NCBI RefSeq assembly: GCF_900101475.1
Contig: NZ_FMZV01000018.1
Span: 914-64,913, forward strand
DNA length: 64,000 nt
Source: Ruegeria marina
Lineage (GTDB): Bacteria > Pseudomonadota > Alphaproteobacteria > Rhodobacterales > Rhodobacteraceae
Reading direction: 5' to 3'
The notes beneath the pieces were generated by a model. The model was not told the DNA's origin, did not search any database, and saw only the letters and a list, made by a program, of their open reading frames with translations. A program made the translations under genes and the position numbers. Below, one piece after another: positions 6,700 through 24,898 of this stretch. Each line of letters opens with the position of its first letter. Within the stretch, counting starts at the first letter, position 1.

Positions 6700-7191
6700 C
6701 TATCCGCGCGGCACAAGGTTGAAACTGGCTGCGACCACCCCGGGTTCCGCGCCACGCTCGACCCGGAACAGGGAGATGTCGTACCCCCAGCCGAGCGAAA
6801 CGTCGCCAAGCCATTCGCCAAGCGCGACGAACGGGACATCCTCGAACCGCAACTCGATGACATCGCCGCCCCGGCGCGAAAGATCGGTTACATGTTCGCG
6901 CAAACCGGCAGCTATAAGAGTGTTTTCCAGTCCGGCAATGCCGATGGGCCGGGTGTCGACGCCCTGCCCCGCCTGTCGCAGCCGAGCCGCCGTTTCCGCC
7001 CCTTCCAGAACCCACTGACGCAGGACAAGCGCATCGGCCAGTTCGGTCCGGGCAGCATCCCGGCGCTCGATCAGGGGCTGCAGGATTCCGATCCAGACTG
7101 CGACCGGAAAAACCACCAGGGCCAGCGCCGCCAGCAGCAAGCGCTCGCGGCGGGTAAGGCCCAGCAGGAAAAAGATCAGCCTTTCCCCCAT
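6700..7191 (-). CDS. gspM: Type II secretion system protein GspM
   Basis: A 163-residue bitopic protein of the inner membrane platform, with a short basic cytoplasmic N-terminus (LTRRERLL), one membrane span at about residues 18-38, a coiled segment (PLIERRDAARTELADALVLRQWV), and a periplasmic ferredoxin-like domain at the C-terminus (VIELRFEDVPFVALGEWLGDV). This is the usual GspM architecture and length. Its start overlaps the gspL stop as TGATG. It is the last gene of the gspGHIJKLM block and ends 6 bp from the convergent lipoprotein gene. No gspN follows. Confidence 0.85.
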   Translation of the reverse strand: MGERLIFFLLGLTRRERLLLAALALVVFPVAVWIGILQPLIERRDAARTELADALVLRQWVLEGAETAARLRQAGQGVDTRPIGIAGLENTLIAAGLREHVTDLSRRGGDVIELRFEDVPFVALGEWLGDVSLGWGYDISLFRVERGAEPGVVAASFNLVPRG

Positions 7192-8366
7192 CAGCCGCCC
7201 TCCGCACTGGTGACCACCAGTTCGACGCGCACACCACCGCCTGGCTCGTCCAGTCCGCTTTCGGCCACCCGAGCGGCAAGACCAGCCGCTTCCAATCGGC
7301 TGACAAGCCTGTCCTGACTGCCGAAATCGGGCACTGTCAATTGCACCCGGAGACCCGTCGCACCGCCATATTCGATGACATCGGTCATGGCCTCGACATC
7401 CCTCAGCACGACCATCGTCCGCTCGGTCAGTTCCAGCGGCGAGCGCCGGTCGTTTTGTGCCTCGGCACGGGCACGCAAAAGGTCGAGCGCATTTCCGACC
7501 TGAACCCGCAGGTCCAGGACCGGGCCATCAGGAAGGATTTCGGCGCGTGCGAGCGCAACCGCCTCTGCCCGCGTCGCCAGGGCGAGTGCCCTTGCCTGCC
7601 GGGTCTCGACGATCAGAGCGGCGGCCCAAATCGCGGCCGCCAACATCGAAAGCAGCACGGGCCATCGCCACGGCAAAACGGTCCGCGCCATGCGAATACG
7701 ATCCTGCTGCGGGTCCTGGCCGATATCGACGCTTTCCTCACCATGGGCGAATACCATGGGCACCGGCAGATTTCTGTCCGCGGCTTCGGCTGCCGCACCC
7801 AGCACCGCCAGATCATGCGTGTTCCACAGCGCATCGAAGCCCGGCAGCCGGTCGCCCTGCCAAAGAACGGCCTTGGGTTTCCTGTCGATCAGCGCGCGTT
7901 CGAAAATGGTCCGCGCCAGGTCCGGTTCGGCCGTGAAGCCGTCGAAAGGCCCCATCCGCACCGAAATCTGACCGTCCTGATGCGATACGGTCCATATGTC
8001 CGGCGCGGCAGGCAGGGACAGGTAATCGGGCAGAACCGCTCGGCACCCCTCTCCCGCTTCCACCCTCCACGCGGCGACCTGCGCCTTGTCGGCGACCAGC
8101 ATCCGGGTCCAGCCCTGGGGGCGGTCGGGATCGCGCAGCGGCCGCAGTTCCGTCCGCGCCGGGTCAAGCCCCATGAGGTCACGCAACTGGCGTTCCGCGA
8201 TCCGTTCCCGCTGGACTCCGCGCACCCTGTCCGGAAGATCCACCGCAACCAGCGGTGCCTGGGCGCCGGGAACCAGCGCAACCTGCCCCGCCACGGCCTG
8301 CCCGACCGGAGCGAATTCCGGCATCGCGCGTGCACTGCTTCTTCTGTTCCGGCGCGAGGCGCTCAT
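7191..8366 (-). CDS. gspL: Type II secretion system protein GspL
   Basis: A 391-residue platform protein. The cytoplasmic N-terminal part (residues 1 to about 230) should be the actin-like domain that docks GspE, a membrane span is visible around residues 232-250 (PVLLSMLAAAIWAAALIVET), and a periplasmic ferredoxin-like domain that pairs with GspM follows (DVIEYGGATGLRVQLTVPDFG). The first 15 residues are Arg/Ser-rich and look like a poorly conserved extension. The start overlaps the gspK stop as ATGA and the stop overlaps gspM. Assignment rests on architecture and position; sequence conservation in GspL is always low. Confidence 0.85.
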   Translation of the reverse strand: MSASRRNRRSSARAMPEFAPVGQAVAGQVALVPGAQAPLVAVDLPDRVRGVQRERIAERQLRDLMGLDPARTELRPLRDPDRPQGWTRMLVADKAQVAAWRVEAGEGCRAVLPDYLSLPAAPDIWTVSHQDGQISVRMGPFDGFTAEPDLARTIFERALIDRKPKAVLWQGDRLPGFDALWNTHDLAVLGAAAEAADRNLPVPMVFAHGEESVDIGQDPQQDRIRMARTVLPWRWPVLLSMLAAAIWAAALIVETRQARALALATRAEAVALARAEILPDGPVLDLRVQVGNALDLLRARAEAQNDRRSPLELTERTMVVLRDVEAMTDVIEYGGATGLRVQLTVPDFGSQDRLVSRLEAAGLAARVAESGLDEPGGGVRVELVVTSAEGG

Positions 8367-9271
8367 TCCCTACTCCTGATACGGTACTCCACCCGGGCGC
8401 GTCTTTCGGCGCCTGCGCGGCGGATCACCGTGTGCCGAGACAGTATCGTATCTCCCAGCGTCGCCGAAGCTTCCACCATGAACCAGTTGGATTCAACGGA
8501 GAACCTTGTCTCGTCGACCGAATCCGGATCGGCATCGCTGGCCTGCCCGATCGTCAAGAGAAACGCCTCGACCGAAGGATACGGATCCCTTGCCCGGTTG
8601 CTCAGGACTTCGCGTATCGCGGCGGCAGGAACCTGCGGCAGAACCGCCATCAGGACGGCGGCCGGTGCCGTGTTGACATTGATCGCCACGTCCGGCGCCG
8701 CAGCGGCCACTTGCGCCAACCGGGCCAGCGCATCCGGCGTCATTCCCGGAACGGCACGCAGCTGGTCGATCGCAACCAGCGTGCCGCCCCGCGGATGGAT
8801 CGGTATGGGGCGGCCGCCATAGCCCGCAAGCGGAGGTGTGCCATCGGTGCCCAGAAAATCCGCAACCGCCTCGGCCTGGGCCACGCTGAGGCCGACGGCC
8901 TCTGCCAGAGCCAGAAACTCGGCACGCATCTCGCCGGACCCGCTGCCGGTCAACCGGTTCAGACTGTAGCGGCCTTGCAGATCGACGATGCGACCGGCCA
9001 CGCGCCCGCGGTCCAGCTCGACATTCAGCGCGGTCGCGGCCCATTCATCTTCCAGGCTGTCCAATGCAGGGCCGCGCAGATCCCGGTCAAGAACGGTCAG
9101 CGCCAATGCATCAAACCCGTCCAGATACAGATCGGTCTGCATCCATTCCTGCCCCAGCGCCAACCGGGTGCGCCCTGCCTGCGCCCGGCTGAGCAGCACA
9201 AGCGCCACCACTGCAAGGGCTGCTACGATCAGAAGCGCGTTGACCAGAACAAATCCCCTCTGCGCTCTCAT
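8363..9271 (-). CDS. gspK: Minor pseudopilin GspK
   Basis: A 302-residue minor pseudopilin that with GspI and GspJ forms the tip of the pseudopilus. The prepilin cleavage site is RG/FVLVNALLIV at residues 6-7, followed by a hydrophobic helix; position +5 of the mature protein is Asn where other pilins carry Glu, a known peculiarity of GspK. The large alpha domain inserted in GspK proteins accounts for the length and includes helix-hairpin-helix-like stretches (ALVAIDQLRAVPGMTPDALARL). It overlaps gspJ and gspL through ATGA junctions. Confidence 0.92.
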   Translation of the reverse strand: MRAQRGFVLVNALLIVAALAVVALVLLSRAQAGRTRLALGQEWMQTDLYLDGFDALALTVLDRDLRGPALDSLEDEWAATALNVELDRGRVAGRIVDLQGRYSLNRLTGSGSGEMRAEFLALAEAVGLSVAQAEAVADFLGTDGTPPLAGYGGRPIPIHPRGGTLVAIDQLRAVPGMTPDALARLAQVAAAAPDVAINVNTAPAAVLMAVLPQVPAAAIREVLSNRARDPYPSVEAFLLTIGQASDADPDSVDETRFSVESNWFMVEASATLGDTILSRHTVIRRAGAERRARVEYRIRSRE

Positions 9272-9867
9272 CGGTAGACCTCGACCAATGGCACCGGCCC
9301 GTAACCCTCCAGTGTGACCGTGACTTCGACCGCGTCAGGCAAGGCCAGTACGATCTGGTTCTCCGGCAGCTCCGTCCAGTCCAGCCAGCCCTGGCCGTCG
9401 GAGTAGACACGCAGGTGCAGCCGCTCGACCCCGGTCAGCATCGTAGTTTCGGGCGAAACCTGGCCTGGCTGTGCCGGGGTCAGGGTCGGCCAGACCCGGC
9501 GCAGCAACGCCCCGCGGCTGCGGTCGAAACGCCATTCAACCCGGCGCATCCCGTCATCCCCCGGCTCACCCATCGAAGGCTGCCCGGCCAGAGACAGACG
9601 CAGCACCGGCCCGGGATCAATCATCTCGAGCGATGAGAACTCGACACCACCCGGCTGCACGAAAGACGCGGGCACCGCATGTGCCAGATCCCGCCGCAAC
9701 AACGTCAGCGCCAGGCTCGCCTCGGCGGTGCGGGCCTCCACTTCCCGATAGCGGTCCTGCGCCCGCAGCGTCCCGTTCAGCACCGACAGGCTCATCACCG
9801 CCACAAAGGCGAACAGCGCCATCGCAATCACCAGTTCGATCAGGGTCAGACCCGCATCCCGCCGCAT
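9268..9867 (-). CDS. gspJ: Minor pseudopilin GspJ
   Basis: A 199-residue minor pseudopilin. The leader is very short: MRRDAG, then cleavage before LTLIELVIAMALF, with the conserved Glu at mature position 5. The globular part has the GspJ-type strand and tryptophan patterns (VEWRFDRSRGALLRRVWPTL; LHLRVYSDGQGWLDW). I chose the ATG at 9867, one base after the gspI TGA, because the leader then has the normal 6-residue length; an upstream in-frame start at 9909 would add 14 residues and overlap gspI. It is coupled to gspK by ATGA. Confidence 0.9.
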   Translation of the reverse strand: MRRDAGLTLIELVIAMALFAFVAVMSLSVLNGTLRAQDRYREVEARTAEASLALTLLRRDLAHAVPASFVQPGGVEFSSLEMIDPGPVLRLSLAGQPSMGEPGDDGMRRVEWRFDRSRGALLRRVWPTLTPAQPGQVSPETTMLTGVERLHLRVYSDGQGWLDWTELPENQIVLALPDAVEVTVTLEGYGPVPLVEVYR

Positions 9868-9868
9868 C

Positions 9869-10246
9869 TCAACGTCCCGACGCAGGCAGATAGGAAACGA
9901 GATGCGCACCAGGCCCGGAGTCCGCGCGGGCCGTTACGGTCACTTGCAACAGCCCTCCAGCCGTGCGCTCGGTCGTTGTCTCCAGTGCAAAACCGTATGG
10001 TCCGATCTGGGCACGCGGCGCAGGTTCGGGCGCATCGGTCACGATGGCAAGGCGCAAAAGCCTGATCTGATTTGCCGCGACGATCTGCGCCAGCATCCGC
10101 TCGCGCTCCTGGCCGATCTGGTCCCCGGCGTCTCCCATCACGCGATAGGTGCCCAGGGTGGCCACCGACAGGACGAGGATGGCCACGACCAGCTCAAGCA
10201 GGGTCAAGCCCCGCTCCTGTCGCGGCGCGATCAACCTGCGCCGCAT
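9869..10246 (-). CDS. gspI: Minor pseudopilin GspI
   Basis: A 125-residue minor pseudopilin with a basic leader (MRRRLIAPRQERG) cleaved before LTLLELVVAILVLSV; the conserved Glu is at mature position 5, and the first mature residue is Leu where Phe is usual. The helix is followed by the short GspI globular domain (NQIRLLRLAIV...PYGFALETTTERTAGGLLQVTVTA). The start at 10246 is preceded by a run of Gs 6 bases upstream that can act as ribosome binding site; an ATG at 10261 is the alternative. The gene overlaps the end of gspH by 16 bp. Confidence 0.9.
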   Translation of the reverse strand: MRRRLIAPRQERGLTLLELVVAILVLSVATLGTYRVMGDAGDQIGQERERMLAQIVAANQIRLLRLAIVTDAPEPAPRAQIGPYGFALETTTERTAGGLLQVTVTARADSGPGAHLVSYLPASGR

Positions 10247-10704
10247 GAGAGTCCCCCCCATCCGTCGCCCCGACAGCGCAACGCACCGTCGCCGGTGCCA
10301 AAAATTACCTCGAACGCGCTGCTGCGCCCATCCGGAAGAAACCGGATTTCAGGAGCGCGCGCGGCCGGGTCCGAAAGGCGCTCTGCGCGAAAGCGTACCG
10401 GTGCCTGCCAGGCAAGACGCACTCCCTCGCTGCGCCATCCGTCCGGCCCGGCCTCGGCCAGCTGCCAGCCGCGCACGTCCAGATAAAGCCCGTGCGCCCT
10501 TCCCGAATGCACCGCCAGACTGCGCAACCGCTCATGCGCATCGCGAAACACCGCGGCGTCCCCCTGCTCCAGACCGGGACGGCGCGTTATCAGCAGGGCC
10601 GATCCCACCGACAACACCGAAAGGATCGCGATCACCACCAGCAATTCGACCAGGGTGAAACCCGCCTTTGCCCATTGGTCCCCCGGCGTCAGTTGCTCTG
10701 CCAA
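10231..10704 (-). CDS. gspH: Minor pseudopilin GspH
   Basis: A 157-residue pseudopilin. The cleavage site AG/FTLVELLVVIAILSV sits after a 15-residue leader. The body contains the GspH-type beta pattern (HSGRAHGLYLDVRGWQLAEAG; VRFRAERLS; IRFLPDGRSSAFEVIFG). The only in-frame start before the pilin motif is TTG at 10704, inside the last codons of gspG (16-bp overlap), so translation is probably coupled to gspG. It is the second gene of the gspGHIJKLM block. Confidence 0.88.
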   Translation of the reverse strand: MAEQLTPGDQWAKAGFTLVELLVVIAILSVLSVGSALLITRRPGLEQGDAAVFRDAHERLRSLAVHSGRAHGLYLDVRGWQLAEAGPDGWRSEGVRLAWQAPVRFRAERLSDPAARAPEIRFLPDGRSSAFEVIFGTGDGALRCRGDGWGGLSCGAG

Positions 10705-11156
10705 GAGCCGATGTCCGAATTGGCGCCGGTCCCGCCCGGTTGCCCGTCCGCGCCGTGGGAAAAGATGTCGAAGGCCCCGTGCACCCCGGGTTGCAGATAC
10801 AGGTACTCGCGCCCCCAGGGATCCTTGGGCAGGCGGGCGATGTAACCGCCGCTTGCCCAGTTCGGCGCCAGCGGTTCACTGCTTGGAGGCGCAACCAGCG
10901 CCGATAGCCCCTGCGCCGTGGTCGGGTAAACGAAATTGTCGAGCCTGTAGAGCGAAACGGCGCTGGACAGCGCCGCGATGTCCGATTGCGCCCGCGCGGC
11001 GCGCGCCTGGTCGGGACGGTCAATGACCCTTGGCACGATCGCGAGGGCAAGAACCGAAAGGATGACCACGACAACCATCAGTTCCAGCAGGGAAAAGCCC
11101 TCGTCCGCCGGGTTGGCCGCAGCCTTCGTTTGCACCGCAAGCTGTTGCTTTTGCAT
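10689..11156 (-). CDS. gspG: Major pseudopilin GspG
   Basis: A 155-residue major pseudopilin. A 20-residue leader ends in EG, cleaved before FSLLELMVVVVILSV, with Glu at mature position 5. The GspG hallmarks follow: YRLDNFVYPTTAQGLSAL, then GGYIARLPKDPWGREYLY, and the C-terminal calcium-binding loop region (FDIFSHGADGQPGGTGANSDIGSW). The length is normal. It is the first gene of the minus-strand gspGHIJKLM block, divergent from the prepilin peptidase gene, so the block promoter should lie in the short intergenic region at 11157-11291. Confidence 0.95.
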   Translation of the reverse strand: MQKQQLAVQTKAAANPADEGFSLLELMVVVVILSVLALAIVPRVIDRPDQARAARAQSDIAALSSAVSLYRLDNFVYPTTAQGLSALVAPPSSEPLAPNWASGGYIARLPKDPWGREYLYLQPGVHGAFDIFSHGADGQPGGTGANSDIGSWQSN

Positions 11157-11291
11157 CGTGTATCACCCTATCACTGTTGGCATCCTATGCCTCGCGTGCC
11201 TTTGCTGGCAAGTCGCGCGCCCGGGCGCAAGCCCGTTCTTCGCCCGACCCGCAGGCAACAGGGCACTGCCGAACCCGCGAAAGGACCGTTG

Positions 11292-12050
11292 TTGCCTCTG
11301 ACAGACCCCCTTGTCCTGCTGCTTCTGCTCGCCGGACCGGCGGCGGGTTCCTTCGTTGCAGTGTTGGCCGACAGGCTGCCAAGGGGCGAGGATGTTCTGG
11401 CCAGACCCTCGGCCTGCCGGTCTTGCGGCGCCCGCCTTCGCCCGGCCGACATGATTCCGGTACTCTCCTTTGCAGTGGCGCGGGGACGCTGCCGCAAGTG
11501 CGGCGCGGCCATTCCTCCCTGGACGCTTTACTCCGAGCTTGCAGCGGCCGGGCTTGCGGTGCTGGCGGTTCTCGCCGGAGGACCGGCGGCTTGGATCTGG
11601 GCTACCGCACTGATGCTCTGGCTTCTGCTGGCACTGGCGCTGTGCGACCTGATGTGGTTCCGTCTCCCCGATGCGCTGACAGCCGCCCTGCTGGCGGTCG
11701 CCCTTTGGCGCGCCACGATGCCGCCTGGCCCGGGCCTCTGGATGGCGGTCAGCGGTGCCGTCGTGGGTTGCGTCGCGCTCGGGCTGGTCCGCCTGGGCTA
11801 TGCCCGCCTGCGCAAACGGGAGGGCATGGGGCTGGGGGATGTCAAGATGATGGCCGGGCTGGGCGCGTTTGCCGGCCCATGGTTGCTGCCGCATCTGATG
11901 CTGGTCGCAGCCTTGTCCGGCCTGGTGCTGGCCTTTGTCGGACAGCGGTTTACGCGCCGTCCGTTGTCCTCGAAAACGCGCCTGCCGTTCGGCACTGCGC
12001 TTGCCTTTGCCGCCGGAATGGTATGGCTGGCGACCACCCCTGTATTCTGA
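11292..12050 (+). CDS. gspO: Prepilin peptidase / N-methyltransferase GspO
   Basis: Polytopic inner membrane aspartic protease (252 residues) that trims the leaders of the pseudopilins encoded across the divergent promoter. It has the early AAGSFVAVLADRLPRG segment, a zinc-type tetracysteine domain (CRSC and CRKC), and both catalytic aspartates: the CDLMWFRLPD segment and the GLGDVK motif. About seven hydrophobic spans are visible. I chose the TTG at 11292 since AAAGGA lies 6 bases upstream and the first membrane span then begins at residue 5 as is usual. An ATG at 11187 would add 35 Arg-rich residues with no good ribosome binding site. Confidence 0.9.
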   Translation: MPLTDPLVLLLLLAGPAAGSFVAVLADRLPRGEDVLARPSACRSCGARLRPADMIPVLSFAVARGRCRKCGAAIPPWTLYSELAAAGLAVLAVLAGGPAAWIWATALMLWLLLALALCDLMWFRLPDALTAALLAVALWRATMPPGPGLWMAVSGAVVGCVALGLVRLGYARLRKREGMGLGDVKMMAGLGAFAGPWLLPHLMLVAALSGLVLAFVGQRFTRRPLSSKTRLPFGTALAFAAGMVWLATTPVF

Positions 12051-12121: not shown

Positions 12122-13687
12122 ATGTTCATTCGTACCGGTCTCATCTGCCTTGCCGCGCTTTTTCTTTTCGCCCAACCTCTGACCGCCCAGACGATCACGG
12201 CAGACAGTGATACGACCGAAACGGAGCCGGGCGCCGAACAGCCCGAGATGGCGGCGCTGGTTCAGGCCTATCGCAACGGAGATTTCGTGACTGCCCGCGC
12301 GGGATTGGCCCAACTGGCCCCGGAAGGTACGCCCAATGCCAAATACCGCTATGGCCGCATACTCTACGAAGGGCTGGGCGGCCCGCAGGATCTTCCCGGC
12401 GCAGTGTTCTGGCTGCAACAGGCGGTCGATGATAACCACGTCGAGGCCGCCACGCTGCTTGCCCAGCTCTATCGTGACGGCAAGGGCGTCGAAGCTGACA
12501 TGTCGAAATATGTCTCGCTGTTACAAAGGGCGGCGACGCGCGGCGACCGGAGCGCCCAGTACCTGCTGGGTATCGCCTATCAGACCGGCGATGGAGTGGC
12601 GCAGGATGACGGCGCCGCGTTCAGCTGGTTTCTTGCCGCGGCCGAACGACAGCACCCCCAGGCCGAATTGGCACTCAGCCGGGCCTATGCCCGAGGACAA
12701 GGCACGGCGCCCGATCCGCAGAAGGCGTTGGACCACATGCAGGCCGCAGCCTCCAATGGCCTGCCCGAGGCGCAGTTCCTTCTGGCACTGAACCTGGACA
12801 GCCAGGGTCCGGCGGCGGCGGATGACGCGCTGATCTGGTTCCGGCGTGCGGCCGAGAACGGCGTACCCGCGGCCCTTCGCATTCTCGGCACCCGTTACCT
12901 CACCGGCAACGGCGTTGACAAGAACATCGATGAAGCCCTGCGACTGCTGACCCGAGCAGCCGATCTGGGGGATGCCGGCGCGATGTCGAACCTGGGCTAT
13001 ATCTTCGCCTCGGGCGATGGGGTGGAGCAGGACGACGCCACCGCGTTCGAATGGTATGCGCGCTCTGCCCGCAGCGGCCTGCCGCGCGGGATGCTGGCGC
13101 TGGCCCTGTTCTACGAGAAGGGGCGCGGCACCGACATCAACATCCAGCTCGCCGAGAAATACTACCGTGCCGCTCTTGCGGGCGGCGTCCCGCAAGCCGC
13201 AGTACAACTGGGCCGGCTGGCGCTTGCCGGCGCACTCGAAGGGCGTATCGACGACCAGGACAGGGCGGCCTGGATCGCGGCAGCCGCAAAGGATGGCGAC
13301 GAAGCCGCCAGGGCATGGCTGGAAGAAAAGTCCGAGGTCGGGATCGGGGCCGCACGGATTGAACTGGCGGGATTGTTGCTCGATGACGAAGCGACCCAGG
13401 CACGGGCCGCCGAATTGCTGTCAAAGGCCGCGGCGAACGGGGACCAGACGGCACAGTTCCGTCTCGCCGAACTCTATGCCGCCGGCACCGGGGTCGCGGT
13501 CGACCCGGTTCTTGCCTATCAATGGTACAACATCGCCGCCGCAACCGGCATGGAGCGCGCCGCCGAGATGCGCGAGGTCATCGCCCAGTTGATGACGCCC
13601 GAGCAGATCGCACAGGCACAATCCCTGTCACGCGCGTTCTTCGACGACGCTGTGGGCGGAACCACGGCGCCAAAGGCCGACGAATGA
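12122..13687 (+). CDS. Exported Sel1-repeat protein (first of a pair)
   Basis: A 521-residue protein with a clear signal peptide (residues 1 to about 23, ending LTAQ) followed by roughly ten Sel1-like repeats of 36 residues. Each has the pattern A..LG..Y..G.GV..D...A..W...AA..G (for example YQTGDGVAQDDGAAFSWF and YLTGNGVDKNIDEALRLL). Sel1 repeats form helical solenoids used for protein-protein contacts, so this is likely a periplasmic scaffold. It follows gspO by 71 bp on the same strand and its stop overlaps the next Sel1 gene as ATGA. The link with the secretion system is by position only. Confidence 0.88.
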   Translation: MFIRTGLICLAALFLFAQPLTAQTITADSDTTETEPGAEQPEMAALVQAYRNGDFVTARAGLAQLAPEGTPNAKYRYGRILYEGLGGPQDLPGAVFWLQQAVDDNHVEAATLLAQLYRDGKGVEADMSKYVSLLQRAATRGDRSAQYLLGIAYQTGDGVAQDDGAAFSWFLAAAERQHPQAELALSRAYARGQGTAPDPQKALDHMQAAASNGLPEAQFLLALNLDSQGPAAADDALIWFRRAAENGVPAALRILGTRYLTGNGVDKNIDEALRLLTRAADLGDAGAMSNLGYIFASGDGVEQDDATAFEWYARSARSGLPRGMLALALFYEKGRGTDINIQLAEKYYRAALAGGVPQAAVQLGRLALAGALEGRIDDQDRAAWIAAAAKDGDEAARAWLEEKSEVGIGAARIELAGLLLDDEATQARAAELLSKAAANGDQTAQFRLAELYAAGTGVAVDPVLAYQWYNIAAATGMERAAEMREVIAQLMTPEQIAQAQSLSRAFFDDAVGGTTAPKADE

Positions 13688-14883
13688 CCAGCTTGCGCGC
13701 CCTGTTTCTGTGCGCGGCCGTGTTGGCCTCGCCGATGGCTGCCCCCGCGATGGCGCAGACCGGCCCGCAAACCGATCTGCTCGAAAGGGCCCGATCCGGC
13801 GATTCAGAAGCCCAGGTCGCCCTTGCCGACCAGTTGCGTACCGGCGACGGGCTTCCTCAGAACTTTGCCGAGTCGGCCAAATGGTACGCCCGGGCGGCTG
13901 AAAGCGGCGACCCGGCCGCCCTGAACCGACTGGGCCAGATGAGGTTTGCGGGCCTGGGAGTGGCGCAGGATCACGCATTGGCGCTGGATCTTCTGAGCCG
14001 GGCTGCCGCTTCGGGCGATGCCCGGATGATCCATGATCTGGCGCAGGCGCTTGACAGCGCTCCGGGCGATCTTGCCGATCATGCGCGCGCGGTTCAACTG
14101 TATCGCCAGGCCGCCGGACTGGGTTTCGAGGAAAGCGCCGTCAGCCTTGCGGCCCTTCTTATCGAGGGGAGAGGAACCGCGGCGGACCCCGATCAGGCAC
14201 GCCGTCTGCTGGAGCCGATCGCGGCGCGGGGGCACCCGAAGGCGGCCAACAATCTGGCTTTGCTTTTCGTCCGTGGCGACGGGGTGGAGCAGGACTACGC
14301 GCGCGCCGCCGAACTGTTCCGTATCGCCGCGGACGCCGGAATGCCCGAAGCGATCCGGAACCTCGGCGTGTTGTACGAGAACGGGTTTGGGGTGCCGCAA
14401 AGCGACGAAGAGGCCGCCAGTTTGTACCGGCTCGCGGCGTCGCTGGTCAGCCCGGAGCCGGCCAAGACACTGCCGCCTCTGTACGATCCTCACCTGATAC
14501 CGTTCACCGGCTCGCAGGATGAACTGGACCACATCATGGCTCGGGCCGAAACCGGCGACCCGGTCGCCATCTCCACGGCCGGCATGGCGATTCTGGCCGT
14601 TCAGAACGATTTTTCCGCTCATGCCGAAGCGGCCCGTTGGTTCCGCCGCGCCGCCGAGGCCGGGCACGGCTATTCCATGGCCAATCTCGGGGTGCTCTAT
14701 TTCCGGGGCAGCGGCGTGCTTCAGGACTACGTTCTGGGTTACATGTGGTTGTCCCTGGCCAAGGCGGCGCAGGTCGAAGAGGCGGCGGCGATGATGGAAA
14801 TCGCCCTGCCCCGAATGACACCGGCACAGGTGGCAGATGCCCAGGCGCGCGCCGCGGCACTCTGGCAGAAGTGGCACCCCTGA
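13684..14883 (+). CDS. Exported Sel1-repeat protein (second of a pair)
   Basis: A 399-residue protein with a signal peptide (ALFLCAAVLASPMAAPAMAQ; cleavage near residue 25) and about eight to nine Sel1 repeats in two blocks (residues about 30-265 and 290-390), separated by a non-repeat stretch around SPEPAKTLPPLYDPHLIPFTG. It starts by ATGA overlap with the preceding Sel1 gene and shares its design, so the two are probably an old duplication that works as a pair. Function is unknown; a periplasmic scaffold role is inferred from the repeat type. Confidence 0.88.
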   Translation: MTSLRALFLCAAVLASPMAAPAMAQTGPQTDLLERARSGDSEAQVALADQLRTGDGLPQNFAESAKWYARAAESGDPAALNRLGQMRFAGLGVAQDHALALDLLSRAAASGDARMIHDLAQALDSAPGDLADHARAVQLYRQAAGLGFEESAVSLAALLIEGRGTAADPDQARRLLEPIAARGHPKAANNLALLFVRGDGVEQDYARAAELFRIAADAGMPEAIRNLGVLYENGFGVPQSDEEAASLYRLAASLVSPEPAKTLPPLYDPHLIPFTGSQDELDHIMARAETGDPVAISTAGMAILAVQNDFSAHAEAARWFRRAAEAGHGYSMANLGVLYFRGSGVLQDYVLGYMWLSLAKAAQVEEAAAMMEIALPRMTPAQVADAQARAAALWQKWHP

Positions 14884-15246: not shown

Positions 15247-15663
15247 GTGTTGAGACTGGTTCGCTTTTGGGTTGCTACAGGCAGTCTGGCCTTGGCTCAT
15301 TCCGCCATAGCAGCGGAACCCACTGCCCAGCACAACACGAACGCCTTCTGGTTCGAGAACTGGGGCAGCCTGACCAACGCCACCCTGGTGATCGAATCGC
15401 CAAGCGGAAAGATCTATGAAGTCCGCGCCGCTAGCGGCACACCCGTGTTCCAGCTTTCGGGGCAGGAAACGATGGACGGAGTTTACTCCTACGAATTGTC
15501 AGCGGCGACGGACGAGCAGGAAACCATCGCAAATCCGATAGACAACGGCCGTGGCAGCGCGGCCCGTGATACGCGGGCCAAGCCTTACTACCTGACCGGG
15601 GCATTTCATGTCTCGCGGGGCGTCATAATCACGCCCGAAAAAGTTTCTGAAGACGGTGACTAG
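15247..15663 (+). CDS. Small exported protein of unknown function
   Basis: A 138-residue protein. I chose the GTG at 15247 because GGAGGT lies 6 bases upstream and the product then begins with a clean signal peptide (LRLVRFWVATGSLALAHSAIA, cleaved before AEP); an ATG at 15211 lacks these features. The mature part of about 115 residues has a beta-rich pattern (ATLVIESPSGKIYEVRAASG; GVYSYELSAATDEQ) and no cysteine. I do not recognise the family. It sits 33 bp before the tail-fibre-like gene and is probably co-expressed with it, so it may be exported together with it or help its folding. Confidence 0.75.
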   Translation: MLRLVRFWVATGSLALAHSAIAAEPTAQHNTNAFWFENWGSLTNATLVIESPSGKIYEVRAASGTPVFQLSGQETMDGVYSYELSAATDEQETIANPIDNGRGSAARDTRAKPYYLTGAFHVSRGVIITPEKVSEDGD

Positions 15664-15696
15664 TCTTTTTACAGGGAAATGAAAGAGTAGGTAACA

Positions 15697-16839
15697 ATGA
15701 CCAAAGTGAGATTGAGCGCACTGGCGCTGCTTGGCACCACGACCGGCCTCGTCGGATTGCAGACCCAGACGGCGCATGCGGACATCATACATGCTGATGA
15801 CGTGATCATTCAATTCAGCCTCTGCGTGGGCAACGACTGCGTGAATGGTGAAAACTTCGGCTTCGACACGGTGCGGCTGAAAGAGAACAACCTGCGGATC
15901 CATTTCCAGGATACCAGCGGCTCCTCCAGTTTCCCCAGCAATGACTGGCGGATCGTCATCAATGACTCGAGCAACGGCGGCGACAACTATTTCGCGGTCG
16001 AAGACTCCAATACGTCGCGGCAAGTGTTCCGGGTGGATGCCGGCGCCCCGGCCAACTCGCTGCGCGTCGACAGCGCCGGCGACGTCGGTATCGGTGAAAG
16101 CAACCCTATCGTGGAACTGCACATTCAGGACGGCGATTCGCCTACCGTCCGACTGGAACAGGACGGATCGTCGGGCTTCACCCCGCAGACCTTCGACATC
16201 GTTTCGAACGAGGCCAACTTCTTCATCCGTGACGTGACCAACGGCAGCCAGCTGCCGTTCCGGATCAAGCCGGGCGCGGATACGGACGCGCTGTTCATCG
16301 CTGCCGATAACGATATCGGCATAGGTACGGACTCGCCGGCAGCTCCCATGCACATCAGACGCAGTACCGGCGGCTTCCTGTCGATGATCGAACTTGAAAA
16401 CAACGGCCCGGTTGCGCTGATCATGGACAACAACGATGCCTCGACTCCGGTCGAATGGCGGATAGGACAAATTCCGGGAAGCACTGATCTGGTTTTCGTG
16501 ACACCGGACGCAGTGGGCGATGAGTTCAAGCTGAGCACCGGTGGCAATCTTACCATCACCGGCAACTTCATTTCCGGTAGCACGACGCTGAACGTCCCTG
16601 ACTATGTGTTCAGCGAAGATTATGAACTGCGTCCTCTCAACGACGTTCGCGCTTTCATCAAAGCCAACAGTCATCTTCCCGAGGTTCCGTCGGCAAGCCA
16701 GATTGCCGCGGAAGGGCTGGACATGAACAAGATGCAGATGGTTCTTCTGAAAAAGGTGGAGGAACTCACTCTCTACACCCTGGCTCAGGAAGACCGCATC
16801 TTGGCGCTCAGCGAGGAAGTGCAAAGGTTGTCTCGCTGA
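15697..16839 (+). CDS. Exported tail-fibre-like protein with a chaperone-like C-terminal end
   Basis: A 380-residue protein with a signal peptide (residues 1-28, ending AHA). The central part contains fibre-like repeats built on G-I-G...P...LHI (DVGIGESNPIVELHI; DIGIGTDSPAAPMHI), interleaved with strands such as NDWRIVINDSS and PVEWRIGQIPG. The last 81 residues (from about 300) read like the C-terminal trimerisation region of Bacteroidetes tail-fibre/S74-like surface proteins: a VFSEDYELRPL segment, SHLPEVPSASQI, then a helical LLKKVEELTLY coil. I see no evidence of the self-cleaving Ser/Lys pair of true S74 peptidases. It is likely a trimeric surface or extracellular fibre; export may use the neighbouring type II system, but that is inference. 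Confidence 0.75.
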   Translation: MTKVRLSALALLGTTTGLVGLQTQTAHADIIHADDVIIQFSLCVGNDCVNGENFGFDTVRLKENNLRIHFQDTSGSSSFPSNDWRIVINDSSNGGDNYFAVEDSNTSRQVFRVDAGAPANSLRVDSAGDVGIGESNPIVELHIQDGDSPTVRLEQDGSSGFTPQTFDIVSNEANFFIRDVTNGSQLPFRIKPGADTDALFIAADNDIGIGTDSPAAPMHIRRSTGGFLSMIELENNGPVALIMDNNDASTPVEWRIGQIPGSTDLVFVTPDAVGDEFKLSTGGNLTITGNFISGSTTLNVPDYVFSEDYELRPLNDVRAFIKANSHLPEVPSASQIAAEGLDMNKMQMVLLKKVEELTLYTLAQEDRILALSEEVQRLSR

Positions 16840-16861
16840 CTTTCATTTGCTGAACTGATCC

Positions 16862-16898
16862 GGAAAGGCTGTTCACCTCAACCGTGAATGGCCTTTCC
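16862..16898 (+). terminator. Strong hairpin after the fibre-like gene
   Basis: Inverted repeat ggaaaggc ... gcctttcc (8 bp) enclosing an inner ttcac/gtgaa stem and a 7-base loop, 22 bp after the fibre gene stop. The following sequence (catttgagagca) has only a short T run, so it may act as an mRNA 3' end stabiliser or partial terminator. Confidence 0.6.
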
Positions 16899-16954
16899 CA
16901 TTTGAGAGCATTGTGCAATTCCTTTCTCATAACAGACTGCAGGAAAGCGTTTCA

Positions 16955-18022
16955 ATGAAGTCCCGCACTCCGTACTCCGAACTACCCGCGAGACAGTTTT
17001 GGCGCACCGCAGTTGCAGAACCGGGACCATTCGGGCTTCAGGATCTACATCGTCCCAAGTTCCAGATCTCGCCTGATCACAAGATCATCACCGCAGGTTC
17101 GTGTTTTGCTCAAACTCTGAGCCGCGCCCTGAAACAAAGGTCCTACACTTGGCTGGACGCCGAACCGGCACCTCCCATGATGCTTCCGGAAACAGCGCGC
17201 CGGTACAACTATGGAATTTTTTCCACACGAACCGGAAACATCTATACCGTTGCGTTGCTGCGCCAATGGCTGGATTGGGCGTTCGAGCCCGAAACCGCCA
17301 ATCAGGAAACCTGGCTGGGAGAAAACGGTCGGCTATACGACCCTGTTCGCCCGACAGTTGAACCCGAAGGATTTGCGGACGAAACCGCCTTTCTGGCGGC
17401 AAGAGAGCAAACTTTCGCGTCACTGCGGCAAGCCATTCGCACAGCCGATATCTTGCTGTTTACACTCGGGTTGACCGAGGCATGGTTGAACCGTGAAACC
17501 GGTATGATCTATCAGATGTGTCCAGGTACTCAGGGCGGAGAGTTTGATCCTGCCCGGCACGAGTTGGTCAATTACTTTTCCGACGCCATCTTGCGCGATT
17601 TCGAGGCGATCATGCAGCGGCTAAAAGTCGAGAACCCCGATATCAAGGTCATATTGACCGTGTCGCCGGTGTCCCTGACGGCAACGGCAGTACCCGACAG
17701 CCATGCCCTGGTCGCCAACACCTATACGAAATCGACCCTGCGCTCGGTCGCCGGCGAAGCAACGCGCAGGTGGAAGAATGTCGACTACTTTCCCAGCTAC
17801 GAACTGGTCGCGGCACCCGCGATGCGCGGAATGTTCTACAACCCGAACCAAAGAACCATTTCTCCGGCGGGGGTCGATTTCGTAATGCGGCACTTCTTCC
17901 AAAGCTATTCTGGATCATTGACCGCAGTGCCAGGCTTGCAGGCGGCAGGCATGCGGCCTGCATCGCAGGACGATGAACCTGTTTGCAACGAAATGATCCT
18001 GGATTTCTACAATGAGCGCTGA
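16955..18022 (+). CDS. GSCFA-domain protein
   Basis: A 355-residue protein of the GSCFA family, which takes its name from the motif seen here at residues 48-52 (ITAGSCFAQ). Other family marks are FTLGLTEAW, LTVSPVSLTAT and ANTYTKSTLRS. The family is related to SGNH/GDSL esterase-like folds and is often found near surface polysaccharide genes, but its reaction is not established. No signal peptide is visible, so it is likely cytoplasmic. I chose the ATG at 16955 because aggaaagcg lies just upstream; a start at 16913 would add 14 residues. The next gene overlaps its end by 11 bp. The gene is AT-richer than its neighbours (33 of 60 G/C at 17101-17160). Confidence 0.85.
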   Translation: MKSRTPYSELPARQFWRTAVAEPGPFGLQDLHRPKFQISPDHKIITAGSCFAQTLSRALKQRSYTWLDAEPAPPMMLPETARRYNYGIFSTRTGNIYTVALLRQWLDWAFEPETANQETWLGENGRLYDPVRPTVEPEGFADETAFLAAREQTFASLRQAIRTADILLFTLGLTEAWLNRETGMIYQMCPGTQGGEFDPARHELVNYFSDAILRDFEAIMQRLKVENPDIKVILTVSPVSLTATAVPDSHALVANTYTKSTLRSVAGEATRRWKNVDYFPSYELVAAPAMRGMFYNPNQRTISPAGVDFVMRHFFQSYSGSLTAVPGLQAAGMRPASQDDEPVCNEMILDFYNER

Positions 18023-18683
18023 TCTGTTCCTGATCGGAGACTCGCATATCATCGCCTTGTGCGAGGCAGCCGATGCCCGCGGTTGGTCATGGCAAGGCGG
18101 TCCCCTGGGCACGGGGATGCAGTTGGAGCAGTGCTTCTGGCGCCAGCAGGGAACCGAATTTGTTTATACTGGAACGGGCGAGAACCTGATCGGTCACCGT
18201 TTCAAGGATCTGTTGACCTTTGACGGGCCGATCATATCCACACTTGGATTCAACTCACATCGTTTCGCTATCGACTTCGCAAGTTATGCCAAGTCGAGAC
18301 AGTTGGCTCCTTTGCCAAGTGTATTGTCCGACCAGGCTTTTGCCGACACGGTTCGGGACTCCAGACGTAACGCGCTTGCATTCTACCGCCTCCTCTCCGA
18401 CCATTCACGGGAGGTATACTTTACTTGTTCACCTCAGAGAGTGGCAAGTTCCCTGCTGCCGGTGTTACGTGCTTTCGAAGACGTTTTGATTGACGAGGTC
18501 GCCGCGACAGGCGCTCGTTTCATCGATTTCAGGCACCTGGCCCTGGACGACCATGTTCTGCGCCCGGAATTCTGCAATGCAAAGGACCAGATGCATGGCA
18601 ATGCAAAACTGGGGGGCCTGATACTGGACGTGTTTGAAGAAGCCCAATTTTCGATCGCCAAGACGGGAAGCCTGAAAGAATGA
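18012..18683 (+). CDS. SGNH-hydrolase-like protein with GDSH motif
   Basis: A 223-residue protein starting with LFLIGDSHIIAL, whose GDS at residues 9-11 matches block I of the SGNH/GDSL fold, where Ser would be the nucleophile. A late DQMHGNAKLGG segment could supply the catalytic Asp/His block (DxxH). No signal peptide is seen. It overlaps the GSCFA gene by 11 bp and the next gene by 4 bp (ATGA), so three genes are translationally coupled. A role as acyl transferase or esterase acting on a glycan or lipid precursor is plausible, not proven. Composition is notably AT-rich for this genome (28 of 60 G/C at 18241-18300). Confidence 0.7.
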   Translation: MSADLFLIGDSHIIALCEAADARGWSWQGGPLGTGMQLEQCFWRQQGTEFVYTGTGENLIGHRFKDLLTFDGPIISTLGFNSHRFAIDFASYAKSRQLAPLPSVLSDQAFADTVRDSRRNALAFYRLLSDHSREVYFTCSPQRVASSLLPVLRAFEDVLIDEVAATGARFIDFRHLALDDHVLRPEFCNAKDQMHGNAKLGGLILDVFEEAQFSIAKTGSLKE

Positions 18684-21600
18684 ACACCATTTCCCTGCCG
18701 ACAAATTCAAAAAGACTGCTGATTGCGGGCCTGATCCTGTTCACTCTCGCCTATATGTTCTGGACCGGCTCGCGCTATCCTGAACTTGACGAAAAAGCGA
18801 TGATGTCCGGTGCGATCCAGCTTGAGGATCCACTGGGGTTCGAGGCGAAGTACACCCTCAACCCCGATATGGGTGTGATCGAGCGGATTTTCTATTCGAC
18901 GCTGAACTGGATCAATACCAACAAGAAGGGCATGACATTCGGTGTCCTCTTTGCTGCCGCCCTGCTGACCGCGCTGGAGAACATCCGCCGCCGTACCTTT
19001 GGCGGCGGGATGCGCGACTCCTTCATGGGGCTCTTGCTGGGTACGCCGCTTGGCGTCTGCGTGAACTGTGCCGCACCGATCGCGCGCGGCATGTATGCGG
19101 GCGGGCTCAGGGCGGAAACCACGCTCTCGGCTATGATCGCCTCGCCGACGCTGAACGTCGTGGTGCTGACGATGCTGTTCAGCCTTTTGCCGGTCTACAT
19201 GGCCCTGACGAAAATCGCGCTCAGCCTGCTGCTGATCCTTGCGATCGTGCCGCTGATCTGCCGCTGGTTGCCCGCCGAACAACTGGTTGTTGCCCCCTCG
19301 GCTCAGGTGCAGACTCCGTGGAGTGCCGTCGAGACCGGCCTGGACCGGCAGCCCGAAACGCTGGTTGCCGCCATTGGGGCCACGGGCCTGCGCTTTGCAC
19401 ATAACTTGTGGTACATCGTGCGCCTGACCGTACCGCTGATGCTGCTCGCGGGCATTCTTGGGGCGATCGCGGGTACGCTGTTGCCGCTCGACCGGATTTC
19501 CGAACTTCAGTTCGGCCTGATGGCCCTGATCTTTGTCGCCATGGTCGGTGTATTCCTGCCGGTGCCCATGGCCTTTGACGTGGTCGTGACCGGTGCCCTT
19601 GTCGCCGCCGGCCTGGCGCCGGGTTTCGTGATGACATTGCTCTTTACCCTGGGCAGCTTTTCCGTGTTCTCGTTCTTCATCATCGCGCAGGCAATCTCGT
19701 TTCGGGCCGCCTGGATGCTGACCCTTGCGGTGGTCATCCTTGGCATCGCGGGCGGGATCGGCGCACAACGCTATCACCAATGGCAAAGCGACCGCGCGCT
19801 CGAACTGCTGCTGGGGGCGGAACGGTTCCTGTTCTCTCCGGCGCATGCATCCGAGGCGATGCCGCGCGTATCCAGCCCCGACGCGTCACGGATCACGCTG
19901 GCCACCGTGCCCTTTGCCCCGCGTTCAGCCGCCTCGGACCTGCCCTTCGAACGCCTTGAGGCGCGTGAGATCGGCATCTCGAAACCGCTGGAGTTCTCCA
20001 TGCGCGACATGTGGCCCCCCTTCTGGGAAGGCCGCTCGGTGAGCTCGGGCGACATCGACCGCGACGGCGATCTGGATGTCGTGATCGCCTCGACCGAGAA
20101 GGGGGTTTATGTTTTCGAAAACGACGGCACGGGACGGTTCACTGCACGCCCGACCCCGCCGGCCCCTCTGGGCGGCATGCCGGTCTTCAACGCCGCGTTG
20201 AACGATCTGAACCGTGACGGCTGGCCCGACCTGTTCCTGACGACCTACCTTCAGGGCAACTTCATTCTGTGGAACCGGGACGGCCAGTTTGACTGGGCCG
20301 ACGCGGTGCCGGTTCCCAATCGCGACGACGCCATCCTGACGCTATCCCTGGCTTTCGACGATCTGGACGCCGACGGATATCTCGACGTGGCCCTCGGCAA
20401 CTGGGCCGCCGGCTGGTACAGGCGCGTGCCGGGCGAGGAGGCCCGCAACCGAGTGCTTCTGTCCGCCGGCAAGGTGATGGATGGGCAGGCCTTTGTCGAT
20501 TTGCCGGGCATCCCCGGCGAGACCCTTTCGATCCTCTTTTCCGACGTGAATGCCGATGGTCGCGCGGATCTGCTGGTCGGCAATGATTTCGAAGTTCCCG
20601 ACTACTTCTACCTCAGCTCACCCGAGGGCGGCCTGCGCGCCGTTACCCATGACGACGGGCTGATCCCACATACGACAACGACGACAATGGCCATAAAGAC
20701 CGGCGATCTGTTCAATGACGGCAGCCCCGAAATCTATCTCGCCCAGATCGCCGGCCGATCCTCTGGTGTTTCGGCAACACTCAAGATGCAGCCGCTTGGA
20801 CAATATTGCGACAAGATCAGCGATCCCGATGACCGCGCCACCTGCATGCGGAACATGGAGATCAAGACCTGGTACAAGTCCGGCAACAATTTCGACCCGA
20901 CCTATGCCGGACGCTGCGAACAACTCGAAGGCCGTTACAAGGACGAATGCAAGGCCATGCTGATCAAGGATCTGGCGATTCAGCGGCGTGACTCCTCGCT
21001 GTGCCGGCTGATCCCGGAAACCCAGCCGATCCCGGCAGCCTACTGCCGTATTCACTTCGCCCCCTCCCGGGCCCCAACCGCCGAAGAAAGCCAGTCTGCC
21101 ATCGCACAGATCCTGCGCTCGAATGTTCTTCTGGAAAAGGATGGGGCGGCCTTTGACGATACGGCAAAGACCCGTGGACTGGAAATCGGAGGCTGGAGCT
21201 GGGACACCAAGATCGGCGACTTCGACAACGACGGCCATCTCGATGTGTATGTGGTGAACGGAACCTGGGTCCCGAACGAGGTCAGCCCGTCGAACCTGTT
21301 CTTTCATAACGATGGGCATGGCAAGTTCGTCGAAGCCTCCGGTCCTTTCGGCCTTGAAGACTATCTGATGACCGCCTCTGCCACCCTGTTCGATCTCGAC
21401 AATGACGGTGACCTCGACCTGCTGACACATACGGTGAACGGTCCGCTGGCGGTCTTCAGGAATGGCGGTCAGTCAGGAAACGCGCTGACGCTCGAACTCG
21501 ATGACGGCTCAGGCAACCGGCAGGGCATAGGCGCCCTTGTCCGGCTGACCTTCGACGGAGGCAGGACCTTGACCCGCGAGATCCAGAGCGGCGGCGGTTT

Positions 21601-21754
21601 CATGTCGTTCGACGCCCCGCGCGTGCATTTCGGTCTGGGCACGGCAACCGGCGCCGACAGGCTGGAAATTCACTGGCGGACGGGCGATCCCACCGTGATC
21701 GAAGGCCCGATCGATGCGGGCCAGCTGCTACGAATCAGCCGCGCCCCGGAATGA
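18680..21754 (+). CDS. Permease fused to an FG-GAP/VCBS beta-propeller with UnbV (ASPIC) C-terminal domain
   Basis: A 1024-residue fusion. Residues 1 to about 365 form a membrane permease with 8 or so hydrophobic spans. The segment GVCVNCAAPIA (125-135) followed by ASPTLNVVVL (154-163) resembles the CSCG..P and S.P..N motifs of the ArsP/YraQ (DUF318) permease family, with a C-x2-C pair at Cys127/Cys130. Residues about 440-930 carry FG-GAP repeats with calcium-binding D.D.DG.LD loops (DIDRDGDLD at 458, DLNRDGWPD at 509, DLDADGYLD at 561, DVNADGRAD at 622, DFDNDGHLD at 847, DLDNDGDLD at 905, plus a DLFNDGSPE variant at 676), enough for a seven-bladed propeller. A six-cysteine insert lies at about 710-789. 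The end (930-1024) resembles the UnbV/ASPIC domain. Cys pairs and Ca sites imply the propeller is periplasmic. Coupled by ATGA to the SGNH gene. Confidence 0.85.
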   Translation: MNTISLPTNSKRLLIAGLILFTLAYMFWTGSRYPELDEKAMMSGAIQLEDPLGFEAKYTLNPDMGVIERIFYSTLNWINTNKKGMTFGVLFAAALLTALENIRRRTFGGGMRDSFMGLLLGTPLGVCVNCAAPIARGMYAGGLRAETTLSAMIASPTLNVVVLTMLFSLLPVYMALTKIALSLLLILAIVPLICRWLPAEQLVVAPSAQVQTPWSAVETGLDRQPETLVAAIGATGLRFAHNLWYIVRLTVPLMLLAGILGAIAGTLLPLDRISELQFGLMALIFVAMVGVFLPVPMAFDVVVTGALVAAGLAPGFVMTLLFTLGSFSVFSFFIIAQAISFRAAWMLTLAVVILGIAGGIGAQRYHQWQSDRALELLLGAERFLFSPAHASEAMPRVSSPDASRITLATVPFAPRSAASDLPFERLEAREIGISKPLEFSMRDMWPPFWEGRSVSSGDIDRDGDLDVVIASTEKGVYVFENDGTGRFTARPTPPAPLGGMPVFNAALNDLNRDGWPDLFLTTYLQGNFILWNRDGQFDWADAVPVPNRDDAILTLSLAFDDLDADGYLDVALGNWAAGWYRRVPGEEARNRVLLSAGKVMDGQAFVDLPGIPGETLSILFSDVNADGRADLLVGNDFEVPDYFYLSSPEGGLRAVTHDDGLIPHTTTTTMAIKTGDLFNDGSPEIYLAQIAGRSSGVSATLKMQPLGQYCDKISDPDDRATCMRNMEIKTWYKSGNNFDPTYAGRCEQLEGRYKDECKAMLIKDLAIQRRDSSLCRLIPETQPIPAAYCRIHFAPSRAPTAEESQSAIAQILRSNVLLEKDGAAFDDTAKTRGLEIGGWSWDTKIGDFDNDGHLDVYVVNGTWVPNEVSPSNLFFHNDGHGKFVEASGPFGLEDYLMTASATLFDLDNDGDLDLLTHTVNGPLAVFRNGGQSGNALTLELDDGSGNRQGIGALVRLTFDGGRTLTREIQSGGGFMSFDAPRVHFGLGTATGADRLEIHWRTGDPTVIEGPIDAGQLLRISRAPE

Positions 21755-24885: not shown

Positions 24886-24898
24886 GGGTGAACTCCTG

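Follow-up and report, generated by a model that had tools for sequence, protein, structure and literature searches.

A stretch of 64,000 nucleotides from Ruegeria marina (contig NZ_FMZV01000018.1, positions 914 to 64,913; called the window below, with all coordinates counted within it) raises the question of what a bacterium makes with a row of five genes that lie beside a type II secretion system (T2SS) and encode a small exported protein (g1), an exported fibre protein (g2), a GSCFA protein (g3), an SGNH-like protein (g4) and a permease-propeller fusion (g5). In the initial annotation, the five genes were taken for an island of their own that builds or modifies a surface fibre or glycan, and the T2SS for a possible exporter of the fibre. 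The comparative genomic analysis described here suggests that the locus is probably a T2SS-coupled surface-fibre display system, in which a fixed core is combined with genes for the fibre and for glycan tailoring that can be exchanged. On the best reading, the fixed core comprises the T2SS, a prepilin peptidase, two Sel1-repeat proteins encoded upstream of g1 (Sel1a and Sel1b), g1 and g5, and the exchangeable part comprises g2 and the genes of a variable slot between g2 and g5, filled by g3 and g4 in the window.

Conserved gene order around the fusion gene

Species genomes were scanned with g5, which yielded 105 relatives, and the best 80 of these were kept, giving 81 loci including the window. 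Gene families were derived by homology from all open frames, since a codon-based gene caller missed g3 and g4, and T2SS clusters were named through the Pfam matches of their representatives, apart from seven small ones that were named by position. Judging by the record labels, the relatives belong mostly to roseobacter-type genera and also to Maricaulis-type bacteria, Breoghania and others. The homology clusters follow the conserved order Sel1a-Sel1b-g1-g2-[slot]-g5, with g5 found in 81/81 loci, g1 in 67, Sel1b in 66, g2 in 64 and Sel1a in 62, the GSCFA protein in 6 loci and the SGNH protein in 3 loci. When the count is confined to the 61 loci with flanks of 9 kb or more on each side, g1 and Sel1b are each present in 54, g2 and Sel1a each in 50, and all four in 40.

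All five flagged reading frames are present on the plus strand of the window, and the 11-bp overlap of g3 with g4 and the 4-bp overlap of g4 with g5 are borne out, although frames were started at the first possible start codons and gaps and overlaps are therefore approximate. The boundary initially drawn around the five genes is wrong, as the conserved block starts upstream at the omitted Sel1 genes (12122-14883), and g3 and g4 are not conserved members. Given the few loci with g3 or g4 in this survey and the genome control for GSCFA described below, the five-gene unit is rejected in favour of a conserved core plus an exchangeable slot.

The block occurs in three layouts. In most loci from Rhodobacterales, the T2SS is divergent from the row peptidase-Sel1a-Sel1b-g1-g2-slot-g5. 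In Maricaulales (7 loci), a different T2SS arrangement (E, F, a member of the gspG family, several genes with no name in Pfam, then D and K) runs into g5, which overlaps the gspK-like gene (median 4 bp, range -94 to 71) and is followed by Sel1a, Sel1b and, in most of these loci, g1 and g2; the order g5 to Sel1a is seen in 11 loci, with a median gap of 3 bp. The third layout, found in loci of the Robiginitomaculum and Hellea types, has g5 flanked by g1 and g2, and by the Sel1 genes, on the opposite strand. That the association survives all three layouts argues for a functional tie.

The closest fusion-bearing relatives of the window are genomes G009, G002 and G001, and the fusion is accessory in the window's genus, as it is present in 3/5 genomes. 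Eight plasmid records carry g5, each at least 80% covered. Plasmid pDOK1-4-5 of Tateyamaria omphalii DOK1-4 encodes in a row a T2SS, an A24 peptidase, TPR- and SEL1-annotated proteins in the places of the Sel1 proteins, a small protein in the place of g1, a tail-fibre-domain protein and g5; past g5 (L128:23239-25185) there are three tail-fibre-annotated proteins, the two tested having a phage tail collar domain, and then a sulfotransferase. On the Parasedimentitalea plasmid pW43A (L131:20010-23143), g5 is annotated piecemeal as a permease, a hypothetical protein and CRTAC1, with GSCFA, sulfotransferase and T2SS genes close by. Two loci, L058 and L059, lie on one contig of a Roseobacter metagenome-assembled genome (MAG) and seem to be two copies of one 23-kb stretch, separated by about 95 kb, as a result of either recent duplication or an assembly artefact.

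Co-occurrence in whole genomes

The search for co-occurrence that had been proposed with the initial annotation was carried out within the window's family, on 296 genomes that have a completeness of at least 90% and were sampled at almost one per genus, by which shared ancestry is reduced, not removed. Full-length g5 was defined by E 0, strong g2 by E <1e-100 and gspG by TIGR01710. Full-length g5 is found in 17/296 genomes, and the set of genomes with g1 is identical (17/296; Fisher p 5.5e-28); the 16 genomes with strong g2 are all among these 17 (Fisher p 1.5e-25). gspG, present in 38/296 genomes, occurs in 17/17 genomes with full-length g5 versus 21/279 others (Fisher p 1.6e-17), which supports the suspected link to the T2SS. 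As a control, GSCFA was found in 126/296 genomes, namely in 11/17 with and 115/279 without g5 (p 0.05). Co-occurrence of the flagged families was thus confirmed for g1, g2 and g5, but not for the GSCFA protein; the SGNH protein, looked for among the 81 loci and not across whole genomes, is in 3 of them.

Excluded from the 17 genomes were G271, with a partial g5, and G322, with two diverged copies, and excluded from the 16 were the weak g2 matches in G157, G243 and G300; when G271 and G322 are added, gspG and g1 are each found in 17/19. A further 149 genomes match g5 over a shorter length or more weakly, and among the matches listed nearly all fall in the C-terminal UnbV part. For g5 genomes without gspG in the fetched flank, a whole-genome search finds gspG elsewhere in 30/34 (35 loci were submitted and L038 was dropped), and 11 of the 16 g5 genomes without adjacent g2 have g2 elsewhere, including G352 with partial matches only. 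In 13 T2SS loci (17-20 kb), taken from 13 of the 21 genomes that have gspG but lack g5, no match to Sel1a, Sel1b, g1 or g2 was found in any (13/13). Outside the usual lineages, a Granulosicoccaceae-labelled MAG (L085) carries g5, with g2 and gspG elsewhere in the genome, and in a Nitrosomonas-labelled MAG (L082) g2 adjoins g5 and gspG is present in the genome; these cases reflect either transfer outside alphaproteobacteria or binning error.

Divergence of core and exchangeable parts

Protein distances were compared with those of g5, omitting L059, which shares its contig with L058, and short frames, here and in the fibre-slot analyses. The correlation with g5 is high for g1 (rho 0.80, 63 loci), Sel1b (0.80, 62 loci) and Sel1a (0.74, 53 loci), and extends to GspG (0.57, 42 loci), PilD (0.45, 29 loci), GspK (0.43, 19 loci) and GspJ (0.32, 30 loci), each of these values being reached by 0/200 permutations. 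The core proteins diverge in parallel. The slot varies independently of them, and so does the fibre: g2 distances give rho -0.06 against g5 (59 loci), a value reached by 161/200 permutations, and the separate parts of g2 give rho -0.06 to 0.17 (43 loci, computed without permutations).

Two MAG contigs, L047 and L086, share 95.1% identity across the 6.9 kb that end at about codon 247 of g2, and 97.3% identity across the 5.3 kb that begin two bases before g5. In the interval, the distal g2 and the slot genes have no DNA match except for 191 bp at 71% near the g2 end. The pair thus differs from g2 codon ~247 to the g5 start, and distal fibre and slot were therefore probably replaced together. In another locus, L046, the slot contains an intact sulfotransferase frame, of which only about 150 bp align in its relative L055.

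A strict pairing of fibre with slot type was considered and is not supported. Among 30 loci with filled slots, pairs with a common slot family show no greater similarity over g2 residues 30-225 (difference 0.008, 606/2000 permutations), the closest fibre partner shares the slot family in 3/30 loci, and the closest g5 partner does so in 9/29. The g2 stretch 226-290 gave 54/2000 permutations, a result that is not counted because nine regions or proteins were tested in all.

The permease-propeller fusion

The fusion g5 (18680..21754, plus strand) belongs to the core and matches ArsP_1 (PF03773; E 2.3e-10, 40.6 bits against a cut-off of 32.3), FG-GAP_3 (E 5.7e-36, 123.4 against 26.9) and UnbV_ASPIC (E 1e-16, 61 against 23.4). 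It consists of a permease (residues ~1-364) with a C-x-N-C motif, followed by an FG-GAP/UnbV propeller with a six-cysteine insert. Homologues share 50-71% identity with the window's protein (29 aligned), and C127, N129 and C130 of the motif, as well as C710, C722, C746, C757, C775 and C789, are invariant in 30/30 aligned sequences. The hydrophobic segments stop near residue 364 and about 660 non-hydrophobic residues follow, a part that we place in the periplasm because of its cysteines. The profile of g5 also matches CRTAC1 (E 2.6e-19), no NCBIfam model is reached at cut-off, and public records already contain the protein as 'FG-GAP-like repeat-containing protein'. It carries one domain each of the ArsP_1 permeases, such as SaoE and SO_0444, and of the CRTAC1/UnbV_ASPIC proteins, from both of which it differs in the fusion itself, the six-cysteine insert and the tie to a T2SS.

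Our working guess, a tentative one, is that g5 acts as an accessory adaptor of the T2SS. Its main rival is a metal or redox transporter: g5 would mainly export a metal, a metalloid or a thiol, with a calcium-binding periplasmic sensor, and its service to T2SS substrates would be chemical, by loading them with metal or through redox, and not that of an adaptor. In favour of such a transporter are the ArsP_1 core above cut-off, a weak resemblance to the exporters SaoE and SO_0444 and the invariant cysteines of the membrane motif and the insert. It nevertheless seems unlikely, since g5 remains far below the SaoE and SO_0444 equivalog cut-offs (43.2 versus 325 and 39.9 versus 300 bits), no metal-resistance gene is found among the annotated neighbour families (most small clusters were left unannotated), and a general exporter would not predict strict pairing with g1 and gspG.

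Giant proteins are encoded right after g5 in L059:13287-19967 (2,226 residues), L130:23584-31518 (2,644 residues) and L150:15269-23755 (about 2,830 residues), and are possible alternative T2SS cargo; the L059 and L130 proteins were tested and contain DUF7933, Ig-like and Calx-beta domains, and in L150 T2SS genes follow the giant gene.

The variable slot

Slot contents were counted in the 50 loci in which g5 is preceded on its own strand by a fibre gene (L058 and L059 being one contig). The slot is shorter than 600 bp in 16/50 loci and contains sulfotransferase-type genes in 22/50 (clusters 18, 22, 37 and 88, whose representatives match Pfam sulfotransferases); other slots contain genes for methyltransferases or for glycosyltransferases (families 2, 25 and group 1) or genes without a match. 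GSCFA and SGNH genes fill it in 3/50 loci, the window included, with g4 beside GSCFA in 3/3. As slot contents differ across loci, g3 and g4 are one filling among several. The g3 protein (16913..18022, plus strand, start uncertain) matches the GSCFA family PF08885 (E 1.6e-49; 169.3 bits against a cut-off of 25), and its G-S-C-F-A motif is invariant in 4/4 sequences. SGNH hydrolases are characterized by blocks I (GDS), III (N) and V (DxxH), and the corresponding GDS, GFN and DxxH residues of g4 (18012..18683, plus strand) are invariant in 3/3 homologues; g4 has neither a Pfam match nor a significant PDB match. Cluster 25, with a DUF2793 protein as its tested member, is found in 7 loci.

These contents bear on the proposal that the locus is a glycan-modification island, in which GSCFA, SGNH and the permease-propeller would all act to modify a glycan of the cell surface, with the fibre and the T2SS as bystanders. 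The wealth of sulfotransferase, methyltransferase and glycosyltransferase genes in the slot is in line with it, as is the position of g5 among polysaccharide genes on some plasmids, but the loci with a slot below 600 bp still keep g1, the fibre and g5, loci with 98% identical g5 differ in slot content, and the association of GSCFA with g5 (p 0.05) is set against p of 1e-17 or less for g1, g2 and gspG. We regard this proposal as quite improbable.

The fibre protein

The g2 protein (15697..16839, plus strand) begins with a Sec-like N-terminus, as judged by eye, followed by a conserved stretch (residues ~41-220; per-bin conservation 0.57-0.80), a hypervariable stretch (~221-280; 0.27-0.40) and a C-terminal part that resembles a chaperone or coiled coil (~281-380; conservation beyond residue 280 ~0.45-0.56). 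Graph clustering of the last 90 residues separates three groups (48, 11 and 11 of 70), which are joined in one component. The profile of g2 matches the solved Bdellovibrio fibre Bd2133 (8ond, E 1.9e-14) and more weakly 8ojn (E 2.1e-5) and 8oml (E 2.8e-5), and the protein is related in sequence to the solved regions of Bd2133, Bd1334 and Bd3182, which belong to the mosaic adhesive trimer (MAT) fibres. It also matches a PHROG tail fibre (E 3.1e-9), and one PHROG tail-fibre family is matched by 47/62 homologues; on these grounds, the fibre reading of g2 is upheld. In the window's g2 there is no Peptidase_S74 match at E 0.01, and the domain is present in 10/62 homologues. Predicted viral fibres in BFVD match from E 2.1e-9 with low TM-scores, and the monomer model bears a weak likeness to T4 gp34 and Bdellovibrio fibres (E 0.003 and above). 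The Roseovarius MAG G363, the genome of L045, contains 22 g2 matches, 13 of them in a head-to-tail array of about 15 kb (C16:156084-171313) that forms a fibre repertoire, and L064 and L092 likewise have several g2 copies.

A prophage or tailocin remnant, in which g2 would be a tail fibre captured from a phage and the other genes its neighbours by chance, would agree with this resemblance to tail fibres and with the tail-collar and DUF2793 proteins nearby, but is very improbable, given that none of the g2 (0/71) or g5 (0/21) pattern matches in a viral contig collection encodes a relative, that g2 co-occurs strictly with g1, g5 and gspG, and that its N-terminus is Sec-like by eye, although the neighbour clusters were annotated in part and no systematic search for phage genes was made.

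The secretion system and accessory proteins

The T2SS next to the flagged genes is real. On the minus strand lie gspF (926-2140; T2SSF E 4.4e-46), gspE (2137-3654; T2SSE E 1.8e-127), the secretin gene gspD (3581-5518; Secretin E 5e-41), a gspC-like gene (5649..6113; T2SSC E 2.7e-5, 24.5 bits and thus below the cut-off of 27) and gspM, gspL, gspK, gspJ, gspI, gspH and gspG (6700..11156), with Pfam matches above cut-off for gspM (E 2.2e-20), gspK (4e-11), gspJ (1.8e-17) and gspG (8.1e-40) and below it for gspL (9.2e-4), gspI (3.9e-5) and gspH (6e-4). The plus strand encodes an A24 prepilin peptidase (10986..12050; A24_N_bact E 2.5e-22, Peptidase_A24 E 6e-15), which probably starts later than 10986 because the A24 match begins at residue 116; in the locus clustering it was masked by an antisense frame, and it was identified by a separate Pfam match. 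A secretin with an N0 domain, GspE, GspF, pseudopilins G-K, GspL, GspM, GspC and the peptidase are thus all represented, C, H, I and L by matches below the Pfam cut-offs.

Further core genes follow on the plus strand. Sel1a (12122..13687; PF08238 E 1.7e-56) has a Sec-like N-terminus by eye, and Sel1b (13684..14883; PF08238 E 1e-43) would overlap it by 4 bp if started at ATG 13684. The frame of g1 (15247..15663) is open from GTG 15211, and a start at GTG 15247 gives a plausible Sec signal. No Pfam match above cut-off was obtained for g1, g2 or g4. The model of g1 (predicted local distance difference test score, pLDDT, 88) is a predicted Ig/FN3-like beta-sandwich, for which a Foldseek search of PDB returned nothing at E <=0.001, and the sequence profile of g1 has no match among PDB sequences. 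A second structural comparison returned only common Ig-like sandwiches and DUF3244 proteins, the best being 3sd2 (Z 8.8, root-mean-square deviation (rmsd) 6.6, 82 aligned), along with 3d33_B (Z 8.5, rmsd 2.2, 75 aligned), chains of type 9 secretion complexes (8gl8_D, Z 7.9, rmsd 2.5, 74 aligned; 8glk_D, Z 7.6, rmsd 2.2, 72 aligned), PorZ (Z 7.2) and the C-terminal domain of mirolase (Z 7.0). Kinship with any of these, including the type 9 secretion chains, is not read from the matches.

In the surrounding DNA, G+C content is 54-56% across 15-19 kb of the window versus ~63-67% on both flanks. Promoter-like sites (5 versus 2.4 in shuffles) and terminator-like sites (9 versus 11) are uninformative, and no repeats of at least 12 bases are found in the spacers 14880-15260, 16800-16960 and 21740-22120. 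Past g5, the opposite strand carries what appears to be a formate-dehydrogenase-like gene (22108-24939), matched in 0/80 related loci, and the window edge (1-97) has 5.4 copies of an 18-bp unit that reads as Gly-Ser-Gly-Gly-Thr-Lys repeats.

Discussion

We consider it rather likely that g2 is a substrate of the T2SS. It would reach the periplasm via Sec, trimerise with the aid of its own C-terminal part and exit through the GspD secretin. The fusion g5 would be anchored in the inner membrane, where its propeller could keep the fibre or g1 close to the T2SS and its C-x-N-C permease could pass an ion or a small solute that is thiol-reactive. The initial annotation had likewise proposed a periplasmic role for the propeller, as a sensor or scaffold, and movement of a small group or ion by the permease, which is possible. 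Sel1a, Sel1b and g1 may be periplasmic or exported factors for handling or anchoring, and the slot enzymes may alter a surface glycan or the fibre itself.

Several observations weigh against such a display system. The module is not always adjacent to the T2SS: in the 61 loci with flanks of at least 9 kb on each side, 37 have a T2SS gene, a number that rises to 42 when the peptidase is accepted as well. Among five T2SS loci taken from g5 genomes, the whole block adjoins two and no part of the module lies beside three. The partial and diverged g5 relatives of G271 and G322 come without gspG, g1 or g2, and gspG is absent from 4/34 g5 genomes (L030, L060, L073 and L098), three of which are MAGs and perhaps incomplete. 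Five of the 16 g5 genomes without adjacent g2 lack g2 anywhere, from which it follows that g2 is not the sole cargo or is not essential, and the T2SS of the locus may serve other proteins. The distance correlations partly mirror species phylogeny. The joint replacement of fibre and slot rests on one MAG pair, because fibre and slot types do not co-vary over the 30 loci, and mis-assembly could account for the difference within that pair, although this is unlikely.

Surface adhesins that depend on a T2SS are known (PMC12802150), and the T2SS surface substrates described there are lipoproteins dependent on GspN. Like the systems of InvL (Acinetobacter) and PulA (Klebsiella), which bring adhesins or enzymes to the surface, the present one is a T2SS with the usual components, here beside a candidate surface protein; unlike those lipoproteins, g2 is a fibre protein with no visible lipobox. 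The MAT fibres of Bdellovibrio have swapped tips, their proximal region being conserved and their distal region variable (PMC10769870). Like them, g2 has a proximal part that is conserved and a distal part that varies, its family includes S74 and non-S74 C-termini, and its sequence matches Bd2133 in the distal region for which a structure has been solved. It differs from them in size (~380 residues, versus ~630-1,150 among MATs named in that paper), in its occurrence in other alphaproteobacterial lineages and in its tie to a T2SS module. According to the same paper, the N-terminal MAT domain has no solved structure and its surface partner awaits study; its main text uses the word 'secretion' 0 times.

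A search of the literature, which covered open-licence PMC papers and in which absence weighs little, returned no description of the accessory set or of the combination. We know of no counterpart for the set Sel1a/Sel1b/g1/g5, and the novelty looks to lie in this set and in the combination. The locus may even represent a distinct T2SS subtype, strictly accompanied by an inner-membrane permease-propeller and dedicated to the display of a phage-like fibre, with a fixed site at which the distal fibre and genes for glycan tailoring are exchanged, a possibility that we advance with some reserve. T2SS substrate choice and handling are poorly understood, and natural variation at such loci, with a core diverging in parallel and cargo that does not, makes it possible to separate the accessory candidates g5, g1, Sel1a and Sel1b from candidate substrates and provides testable roles for g1 and g2, which have no Pfam match in the window. 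The locus also provides a bacterial, non-phage setting for tail-fibre-like variation next to glycan-tailoring genes, and it may account for the presence of whole T2SS sets on some roseobacter plasmids. If the proposed exchange is real, strains would re-specify their recognition of hosts, surfaces or predators much as phages exchange tail-fibre tips.

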